Assembly (NCBI GenBank): GCA_002279065.1
Contig: NCKB01000004.1
Coordinates: 62,001-126,000, forward strand
Direction: 5' to 3'
Source: Lysobacterales bacterium 15-68-25
GTDB lineage: Bacteria > Pseudomonadota > Gammaproteobacteria > Xanthomonadales > Rhodanobacteraceae
Length of the DNA: 64,000 nucleotides
The translations under genes and the position numbers were made by a program. Below, one piece after another: positions 14,518-18,587 of the stretch. The stretch's first letter is position 1, and every line of letters begins with the position of its first letter. The notes beneath the pieces were generated by a model. That model saw only the letters and a list, made by a program, of their open reading frames with translations. It had not been told where the DNA came from and made no database searches.

Positions 14518-14546
14518 TTCGCAGCCGCGGAGACCTCGGATATCAT
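14518..14546 (+). promoter_or_regulatory. Candidate sigma-70 promoter of the Mn riboswitch transcript
   Basis: TTCGCA (14518-14523) and TATCAT (14541-14546) are separated by 17 bases. This would place the transcript start near 14552, just where the first riboswitch stem begins. The -35 box is weak, but position and spacing agree with the aptamer boundary. Confidence 0.45.
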
Positions 14547-14551
14547 GCGCA

Positions 14552-14659
14552 GGTCATTGGGGAGTAGCCGCTCTTCGTCTCTCGAAGAGGCCCGCGTCAA
14601 CACACTTGGCCCACCGGCCATGGCGCAGGCAGCCCAACCGCCTGGCAAGACCTTTGACC
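14552..14659 (+). ncRNA. yybP-ykoY manganese riboswitch aptamer
   Basis: The conserved blocks of this class are present in order: ATTGGGGAGTAGCC at 14556-14569, GTCAACACACTTGGCCC at 14596-14612, a CCGGCCATGGCGCAGGCA block, and GGCAAGACCTTTGACC at 14644-14659. GGTCA (14552-14556) can pair with TGACC (14655-14659) to form the closing stem P1. The class binds Mn2+ and typically controls manganese exporters, which matches the UPF0016 gene downstream. The assignment is by consensus recognition, not a covariance model. Confidence 0.9.
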
Positions 14660-14695
14660 ACACGCCTCCGACTGCGGCCGGGGAGGCGTGTGGTC
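14656..14695 (+). promoter_or_regulatory. Riboswitch expression-platform hairpin, mutually exclusive with P1
   Basis: A perfect 14-base inverted repeat pairs GACCACACGCCTCC (14656-14669) with GGAGGCGTGTGGTC (14682-14695) around a 12-base loop. Its first four bases are the 3' half of aptamer stem P1. The transcript can therefore form either the Mn-stabilised P1 or this hairpin, but not both fully. The hairpin lacks a clear U-tract, so the off state could be Rho-aided termination or translational control. Confidence 0.7.
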
Positions 14696-14726
14696 AATCG
14701 TCTTCGTCCGGCCCGGGAAATCATCC

Positions 14727-15305
14727 ATGGAAGCCCTCCTCGTCTCCGCCGGCGTCGTCGCCCTGGCCGAAATCGGCGACAAGACCCAGCTGCTCGCCTT
14801 CATCCTCGCCGCGCGCTTCAAGAAGCCGCTGCCGATCATCGCCGGCATCCTCGCCGCCACCCTGGTCAACCATGGCCTGGCCGGTGCGCTGGGGGCGTGG
14901 ATCACCTCGGTGCTGAGTCCGGGGATCCTGCGCTGGGTGCTCGGCCTGTCGTTCCTGGGCATGGCGGCGTGGACGATGATCCCCGACAAGATCGAGGAAG
15001 AGGAAACCCAGATCGCCAGGCGCGTGGGCGTGTTCACCGCCACCGTGATGACCTTCTTCCTGGCCGAGATGGGCGACAAGACGCAGATCGCCACCGTGGC
15101 GATGGCTGCGCACTTCCAGCAGCCGCTGCTGGTGGTGGCAGGCACCACGATCGGCATGCTGGTCGCCGACGTGCCGGCGGTGTTCATCGGCGACCGGCTC
15201 GCCGCGAAGATCCCGATGAAGCTGGTGCATTCCATCGCCGCGGCGATCTTCGCCGCGCTGGGCCTGGCCACGCTGCTGGGCGCGGGCGCGAAGCTGGGCT
15301 TCTGA
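14727..15305 (+). CDS. UPF0016 (TMEM165/GDT1-type) manganese exporter
   Basis: A 192-residue inner-membrane protein with two homologous halves. Each carries the family motif E-x-G-D-K-T: ALAEIGDKTQLLAF near the N-terminus and FLAEMGDKTQIATV in the second half. About six to seven helices are predicted from hydrophobicity. Bacterial members such as MneA of Vibrio export Mn2+, and yybP-ykoY riboswitch control supports the same role here. The probable effect is protection from manganese excess. The ATG lies 32 bases after the expression-platform hairpin. Confidence 0.9.
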   Translation: MEALLVSAGVVALAEIGDKTQLLAFILAARFKKPLPIIAGILAATLVNHGLAGALGAWITSVLSPGILRWVLGLSFLGMAAWTMIPDKIEEEETQIARRVGVFTATVMTFFLAEMGDKTQIATVAMAAHFQQPLLVVAGTTIGMLVADVPAVFIGDRLAAKIPMKLVHSIAAAIFAALGLATLLGAGAKLGF

Positions 15306-17027: not shown

Positions 17028-18587
17028 TCACGAAGCCATCAGCGCGGCGATACCGCCGGCCAGCGACCACGCGTCCACTCCCTGCTCGCGCAGCAGCCTT
17101 GCGGCATGCGCGCTACGCCGGCCGCTGGCACAGACCAGCAGCACCGGACGCTCCAGGTGCACCAGCGCGTAGGCGGAGATCTCGCCCGACGGTACCCGTA
17201 ACGAGGTCACGTGCAGCGGCGTGGCATCGATCTCGTCGGGCTCGCGCACGTCGACGATGGCGTAACCGGCGTGAATCGCCTCCTCGAGCCGCTCGAAGCG
17301 CCGCTCGAGCTCGCCCTCGGCGTGCGCCCGCTCCAGCGACCGGCGCGCCACCGCCACGCAGCCACCGTGTTGTGCGCAGCCCTGGCTGGCGTCGATCGGC
17401 AGTCGCTGGCTGGTGCCGTCGAGCAGGTTGACCAGCTGCAGCGCGTGCTCGGCCGGGCGCGGCAGATCGAGCAGCAGCTTCAGTGCCTCCATCGCCTGCA
17501 TGGTGCCGAGTACCCCGGGCACCGGCCCGAGCACGCCGGATTCGACGCAGCTGCCGGCCAGCGCCGGCGCCGGCGGCTCGGGCCACAGGCAGCGCAGGCA
17601 GGGTTCGCCAGGCTCCGCGGTGACCACCTGCAGCTGGCCCTCGTACTGGTACACGCTGGCCAGCACCAGCGGCGTGCTGGTGAGTACCGCCGCGTCGTTG
17701 GCGAGGTAGCGGCTGGCCAGGTCGTCGGTGCACTCGACCACCAGGTCGTAGCCGGCGAAGACATCGGTGATGTCGCCGGCATGCAGCGGCTGTTCGTAGG
17801 TGATCACCTCGACCGCCGGGTTGAGCTGGGCCACGCGCCGTGCAGCAAGATCGACCTTGCGCTGGCCGACGTCGCGCGCGTCGTACATCACCTGGCGATG
17901 CAGGTTGCTGGCATCGAGCACGTCGCCGTCGACGATGCCCAGCGTGCCGACACCGGCGCCGGCCAGGTAGCTGATCACCGGCACGCCGAGGCCACCGGCG
18001 CCGATCACCAGCACGCGAGCCTCGGCCAGCCTGCGCTGTCCCGCCTCGCCGACCTCGCGCAGGCGGACCTGGCGCGAATAGTCCGGCGCGAACTTGTCGG
18101 CCCGCGAGGGGTGCGGGTGATGGTGATGGCCGTGCGCGTGCGGCGGCTCCAGCTCGTGCGCCCGCTCGGTGTGCGAGCAGGCCACCCAGGCGGTATCGCC
18201 TTCGAGGTAGTGCTCCTTCTTCCAGATCGGCAGGCGGTGCTTGATCTCGTCGATGATGTAGCGGCAGGCGCGGAACGCCTCGTCGCGATGCGGCGCGGAA
18301 ACGCCGATCCACACGGCCAGGTCGCCGATGGCCAGGTTGCCGACCCGGTGCACCGCGCTGGCGGCCAGCACGCCGTAGCGCTCGGCCGCCTCCGCCAGGA
18401 TGCGCTCACCCTCGGCGATCGCCAGCTCGGTGTAGGCCTCGTATTCCAGACCGCTGACTTCGCGGCCCTCGTTGTTGTTGCGCACCCACCCCTCGAACGC
18501 GCAGAAGCCGCCGCTGCCCGGGTGCTTCAGCGCCTCGCGCTGGGCGGCCAGGTCGACCGGGGCGGCAGTGAGCTCGAAGCGGTTCAT
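17028..18587 (-). CDS. moaE: MoaE-MoeB-rhodanese fusion protein
   Basis: A 519-residue three-domain fusion. Residues 1-140 are MoaE, the catalytic subunit of molybdopterin synthase, with GWVRNNNEGREV and the active-site lysines in PIWKKEHY (Lys123/124). A His-rich linker (seven His in 150-159) follows. Residues 165-395 are a MoeB/ThiF adenylyltransferase with GAGGLGVP and CLRC (330-333). Its second metal pair is CAQH plus a later Cys (404, 407, 410), not the usual CxxC. Residues 425-519 are rhodanese-like with Cys486 in VCASGRRS. It could charge MoaD with sulfur and then use it. Start overlaps the moaD stop. Confidence 0.92.
   Translation of the reverse strand: MNRFELTAAPVDLAAQREALKHPGSGGFCAFEGWVRNNNEGREVSGLEYEAYTELAIAEGERILAEAAERYGVLAASAVHRVGNLAIGDLAVWIGVSAPHRDEAFRACRYIIDEIKHRLPIWKKEHYLEGDTAWVACSHTERAHELEPPHAHGHHHHPHPSRADKFAPDYSRQVRLREVGEAGQRRLAEARVLVIGAGGLGVPVISYLAGAGVGTLGIVDGDVLDASNLHRQVMYDARDVGQRKVDLAARRVAQLNPAVEVITYEQPLHAGDITDVFAGYDLVVECTDDLASRYLANDAAVLTSTPLVLASVYQYEGQLQVVTAEPGEPCLRCLWPEPPAPALAGSCVESGVLGPVPGVLGTMQAMEALKLLLDLPRPAEHALQLVNLLDGTSQRLPIDASQGCAQHGGCVAVARRSLERAHAEGELERRFERLEEAIHAGYAIVDVREPDEIDATPLHVTSLRVPSGEISAYALVHLERPVLLVCASGRRSAHAARLLREQGVDAWSLAGGIAALMAS

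Follow-up and report, generated by a model that had tools for sequence, protein, structure and literature searches.

A manganese riboswitch upstream of a GDT1 exporter gene has a candidate third helix adjoining the start site in Lysobacterales bacterium 15-68-25

Results

A yybP-ykoY riboswitch precedes the only GDT1 gene of the genome

The window, a stretch of 64,000 nucleotides from Lysobacterales bacterium 15-68-25 (assembly GCA_002279065.1, contig NCKB01000004.1, positions 62,001 to 126,000), was searched with cmscan. Its sole Rfam match lies at 14544-14715 and belongs to RF00080, the yybP-ykoY Mn2+ riboswitch (model positions 1-177, 97.6 bits, E = 1.9e-24, against a gathering score of 45 bits); the match spans the aptamer and most of the expression platform, and a genome-wide search found no second copy. 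This and all other features are on the forward strand unless stated otherwise. The initial annotation, made from the letters of the sequence, had named the Mn2+ riboswitch family and a complete aptamer consensus, and the covariance-model search agrees with both. All motifs of the L1 and L3 core (GGGGAGUAG at 14559-14567, UCAACA, AUGG and GACC) are present in the cmscan alignment, and this core is near-invariant among 38 relatives. Judged by these matches, the locus is a yybP-ykoY (RF00080) Mn2+ riboswitch, a known kind of locus. The 210 nt from 14551 to 14760 fold better than 200 of 200 shuffled sequences (z = -3.8).

A consensus scan identified a sigma-70-like promoter, TTCGCA-17-TATCAT, at 14518-14546, with a predicted transcription start at about 14553, among the first bases of the P1.1 helix described below. 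A TANNNT box was found 14-24 nt upstream of GGGGAG in 99 of 123 related loci, compared with 13.8 expected in shuffled sequences. On the reverse strand lies a divergent gene for a HAD-family phosphatase (PF12710, 13862-14497), whose start codon is separated by 20 bp from the promoter's -35-like hexamer.

The gene downstream of the riboswitch (14727-15305) encodes a GDT1/UPF0016 (TMEM165-type) cation exporter of 192 amino acids (PF01169, 151.6 bits), a manganese homeostasis protein and, as already proposed, an exporter. It is the only GDT1/UPF0016 gene in the genome. Genes of this type are almost always preceded by a yybP-ykoY riboswitch (328 of 333; PMC7380456). Neither an Nramp/MntH importer nor an MntP exporter was detected in the genome, and because MntP was not detected GDT1 may be the main manganese exporter. 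Elsewhere in the window, on the reverse strand, one frame (17028-18587) looks by eye like a fusion of a MoaE-like molybdopterin synthase part with a MoeB/ThiF-like part and a rhodanese-like tail, and adjoins moeA-like and mobA-like frames.

The GDT1 protein of this genus is approximately 82-84% identical to homologues from Comamonadaceae, Nevskiaceae and Thermomonas, but shares only approximately 50-55% identity with most other GDT1 copies in its own family. A quick, unfinished tree puts the window gene inside a mixed beta/gammaproteobacterial clade with a support of 99, apart from the 13 other members of its own family that were included. Since the gene groups with this clade and not with its own family, exporter and riboswitch were probably acquired together by transfer. 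In many other genera of the family the gene behind the Mn2+ riboswitch encodes a Na/Ca-exchanger-type antiporter (the one relative tested has PF01699), a placement suggestive of manganese export by these antiporters.

P1.1 and a downstream hairpin compete for six bases

The switch helix P1.1 was assigned to GGUCAUUGG (GGUCAuuGG, 14552-14560) and CCUUUGACC (CCuuUGACC, 14651-14659), the last GG of the 5' strand belonging to the GGGGAGUAG core. This register was chosen because of the crystal structure of the X. oryzae riboswitch, in which G8-A94 and G9-G93 form non-canonical pairs stacked on P1.1 (PMC6754395). A first register, pairing AGGUC (14551-14555) with GACCU (14649-14653), was dropped in its favour. 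The aptamer's own GACC, at 14649-14652, is easily confused with the GACC that lies in P1.1.

Downstream, UUGACCACACGCCUCC (14654-14669) and GGAGGCGUGUGGUCAA (14682-14697) form a perfect 16-bp stem, here called S1. The hairpin had been described before as one of 14 bases that shares GACC with the P1 stem. The hairpin is real, and the shared GACC lies within a longer common segment, UUGACC (14654-14659), which is both part of the P1.1 3' strand and the first six bases of the S1 5' arm; the stem length had been understated through omission of the UU/AA pairs. Sharing these six bases, P1.1 and S1 are mutually exclusive.

To look for covariation, 38 related GDT1 leaders were aligned without regard to structure. 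Changes on both sides were seen in four of the seven P1.1 pairs and in 12 of the 16 S1 pairs, so that competition between P1.1 and a downstream structure has support both from the shared bases and from the covariation of the two helices. The minimum free energy fold also lets S1 extend into the aptamer, by pairing of AAGAC (14647-14651) with GUCUU (14700-14704). This extension (EXT) is stronger than the mean of its own shuffles in 90 of 108 loci. Once formed it leaves a linker with a median of 5 nt, and of 3 nt in the window, and this linker is too short for the third helix, S2, described next. Taken together, S1, EXT and S2 have 15 pairs in which both bases have changed (S1 accounts for 12), compared with 9.1 in shuffles.

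In nested energy calculations for the window the S1 state reached -90.7 kcal/mol and the P1.1 state -73.4 kcal/mol, before any term for Mn2+ or tertiary contacts. The S1 state being far more stable, a switch at equilibrium is unlikely, and the choice between S1 and P1.1 is probably made during transcription.

A third helix lies at a constant distance from the start codon

In the window, GGCCGG in the S1 loop (14676-14681) can pair with CCGGCC (14708-14713), which ends 13 nt before the start codon and 1 nt before a Shine-Dalgarno-like GGGAA (14715-14719). This helix, S2, is only 6 bp long here (single-sequence p = 0.06). It is paired in 98% of cells of the GDT1 alignment and is almost invariant inside the GDT1 clade, so that covariation has to be sought in broader comparisons. 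For these, 150 distinct platforms were assembled from Pseudomonadota RF00080 loci together with E. coli mntP and alx. S1 and S2 were located by a joint search in which the S2 5' strand was required to lie in the S1 loop with an overlap of at most 2 nt; a search optimising S1 alone was rejected, having mistaken S2 for S1 in several loci. The joint search picks the best S2 in each locus, so that finding one in 150 of 150 is no evidence in itself, and the evidence comes from shuffles and swaps.

S2 had a median length of 9 contiguous bp, and reached at least 8 bp in 77% of platforms compared with 25% when the downstream segments were shuffled. Although 110 distinct S2 5' strands occur among the 150 platforms, each strand tends to fit its own partner: with kinship between loci ignored, the stacking energy was -22.8 with the own partner and -15.6 with swapped partners (z = -22.4), and the sum over own pairs was -3424, against -2351 +/- 48 in permutations. 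Ahead of the Na/Ca-exchanger-type antiporter genes in other genera of the bacterium's own family S2 is often about 11 bp long, as GCCGGGCGAGC/GCUCGCCCGGC. The 3' end of S2 lies a median of 13 nt before the start codon (interquartile range 11-14, 140 loci), a distance that holds for GDT1, Na/Ca-exchanger-type and MntP genes as classed by short sequence motifs. In 110 of the 150 loci a GGA, GAG or AGG comes after S2, with a median offset of 2 nt.

For the window match, the RF00080 structure line contains no S2 pair. No description of S2 was found in the literature searched, the key 2015 and 2019 family papers excepted, and the helix may already have been drawn; nor, in this partial coverage, was a pseudoknot found described for the Mn2+ riboswitch family. 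The platform of three helices, P1.1, S1 and S2, thus looks undescribed.

Predicted folding places S2 in the state with P1.1 formed

The 150 platforms were folded with a nested (pseudoknot-free) model, either free or with the P1.1 3' strand occupied. In the free platform S1 had a pairing of 0.67 and S2 of 0.24; with the P1.1 strand occupied the values were 0.06 and 0.70. Clean switching from S1 to S2 was predicted in 72 of the 150 loci. In the window P(S2) was 0.01 with P1.1 occupied. Upper S1 can there retain 10 bp above P1.1, and S2 would have to form as a pseudoknot with this remnant. The ribosome-binding site was predicted to be about equally accessible in the two states (0.52 and 0.49). 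The nested folds and the linker left by EXT both point in one direction, and S2 is on these models assigned to the Mn2+ state. A helix adjoining the Shine-Dalgarno sequence in an ON state is unusual.

Neither an intrinsic terminator nor Shine-Dalgarno sequestration is apparent

No terminator-like site was found in the window, and the tail that follows S1, UCGUCUUC, has no U-tract, as the initial annotation had remarked. The trait is not peculiar to this locus: the 8 nt that follow S1 contain fewer than five U in 126 of 150 Pseudomonadota platforms (84%), and at least five in 24. The intrinsic-terminator subtype was rejected for the window on these two grounds. Across 148 loci no segment of the leader or the early coding region was complementary to the ribosome-binding site beyond shuffles. 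Sequestration of the Shine-Dalgarno sequence by the aptamer, S1, the loop, the linker or the coding region was rejected for this reason, as was an anti-sequestor in the coding region, which the nested fold of the window had suggested and which showed no enrichment over the 148 loci. The fixed distance from S2 to the start codon, the missing complement to the ribosome-binding site and the rarity of U-tracts argue for action at translation start or through Rho, and not through an intrinsic terminator. The earlier reading of the switch stands as to family, aptamer, overlap, exporter and missing U-tract, and had overlooked S2 and EXT.

Discussion

At the level of sequence comparison the aptamer family, the overlap of P1.1 with S1, the covariation of S1 and the presence of S2 at its distance from the start codon can be regarded as established. 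By analogy with the family, Mn2+ would turn the exporter on. The mechanism preferred here, to which we give a probability of about 0.5, is a co-transcriptional ON switch in which P1.1, held by Mn2+, blocks S1 and S2 forms beside the start site. Transcription would begin at P1.1. Without Mn2+, S1 would capture the P1.1 3' strand and might zip on into the aptamer through EXT, leaving too short a linker for S2. With Mn2+, P1.1 would be held, lower S1 could not form, and GGCCGG of the S1 loop would pair with the CCGGCC that adjoins the Shine-Dalgarno sequence. The outcome would be fixed during RNA synthesis and take effect, presumably through S2, at translation start or by coupled Rho-dependent termination, with no classical U-tract terminator involved.

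Parts of this scheme have counterparts in known riboswitches. The X. oryzae yybP-ykoY element (PDB 6N2V), upstream of yebN/mntP, shares the aptamer family, the P1.1 switch helix and its Mn2+-stabilised 3' strand; it differs in controlling MntP instead of GDT1 and in being described as acting by antitermination, and a search of the paper found no S2-like helix described (PMC6754395). The L. lactis yoaB Mn2+ riboswitch likewise sets P1.1 against a downstream hairpin sharing its 3' strand (PMC11087558), but that hairpin is a true intrinsic terminator and the switch transcriptional. The assignment of S2 to the Mn2+ state has a parallel in E. coli PRE-alx, of the same family, whose active state contains a helix (C/D) that links the loop of one hairpin to an element further downstream. 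The C/D helix is, however, a loop-loop helix: its partner strand lies in the loop of another hairpin, one that doubles as a terminator, and does not border the Shine-Dalgarno sequence. The PRE-alx switch is kinetic and depends on pausing (PMC3874183). The E. coli mntP riboswitch is under translational, Rho-linked control (PMC11647493). A weak S2 is visible there (GCUGGGG/CCCCGGU ahead of AGGA), although the exporter is of another family and the S1 loop is much longer.

Plasmid rep genes of the ColIb-P9 repZ type are activated by pseudoknots adjoining the Shine-Dalgarno sequence. In repZ, too, a hairpin loop pairs with the strand just before the Shine-Dalgarno sequence; it differs in being regulated by antisense RNA, with no metal ligand.

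At the present locus S1 and S2 might alternatively coexist without Mn2+ as an H-type pseudoknot that blocks the ribosome beside the Shine-Dalgarno sequence, Mn2+ then breaking the base of S1. The geometry of the window (S1 of 16 bp, loop of 6 nt, S2 of 6 bp, junction of 0 nt, linker of 10 nt) and the median loop lengths across platforms (L2 of 4 nt, L3 of 11 nt) permit such a fold, in a topology that the joint search itself imposed; no helix other than S2 touches the start site, and the expected OFF logic follows directly. We nevertheless consider this arrangement rather unlikely, since EXT, which exceeds its shuffles in most loci, would leave the linker too short for S2, and since S2 remains 0.70 paired in nested folds that lack S1, so that loss of S1 need not free the start site. 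Single-strand mutants of S2 are predicted to behave in opposite ways under the pseudoknot and under the preferred ON switch.

The OFF state might instead work through Rho, which could also operate jointly with the preferred mechanism. Formation of S1 would leave the C-rich linker and the S2 3' strand single-stranded; the two would then recruit Rho, and S2 would hide them. These roughly 20 nt contain 39% C and 10% A, the S2 3' strand is unpaired at 0.40 in the free platform and at 0.13 with P1.1 occupied, and at the E. coli mntP riboswitch Rho causes termination, which manganese partly relieves (PMC11647493). The segment is however short and 26% G. Since the OFF state is not predicted to conceal the ribosome-binding site, translation should also shield the RNA; we regard this route through Rho as unlikely. 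S1 could, finally, be a plain if weak intrinsic terminator of the kind known from the transcriptional L. lactis Mn2+ switch, with some other role for S2, but this appears very unlikely. Published accounts treat both the X. oryzae and the L. lactis switch as antitermination systems (PMC6754395, PMC11087558), and at least five U in eight follow S1 in 24 of 150 relatives, but the window has no terminator-like site and 84% of relatives no U-tract, and the fixed distance from S2 to the start codon would be left unexplained. In B. pertussis the related BP3410 Mn riboswitch differs in that control was seen at the RNA level: without manganese RNA stops in the riboswitch region, and a short RNA, roughly 200 nt long, together with manganese-dependent mRNA levels points to transcription, which speaks for termination and against the preferred mechanism (PMC8546581). 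Recent data for V. parahaemolyticus show no premature stop (PMC13274385).

For Pseudomonadota as a whole the proposal is more tentative, and we hold it at somewhat short of even odds: their Mn2+ riboswitches may share a relay from P1.1 through S1 to S2. Binding of the ligand would allow the S1 loop to pair with a strand at a fixed distance from the start codon, with no Shine-Dalgarno sequestration and no terminator, ahead of unrelated exporters. The Mn2+ riboswitch is among the commonest in bacteria, and mechanistic studies have dealt mostly with the terminator version of L. lactis; how the platforms work in Gram-negative members has so far been poorly explained. If true, the relay would represent start-site control without sequestration or terminator, common to unrelated exporter genes. 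S2, at its fixed distance from the start codon, would then be a concrete candidate site of action for many such switches, spanning the leaders of GDT1, Na/Ca-exchanger-type and MntP exporters.
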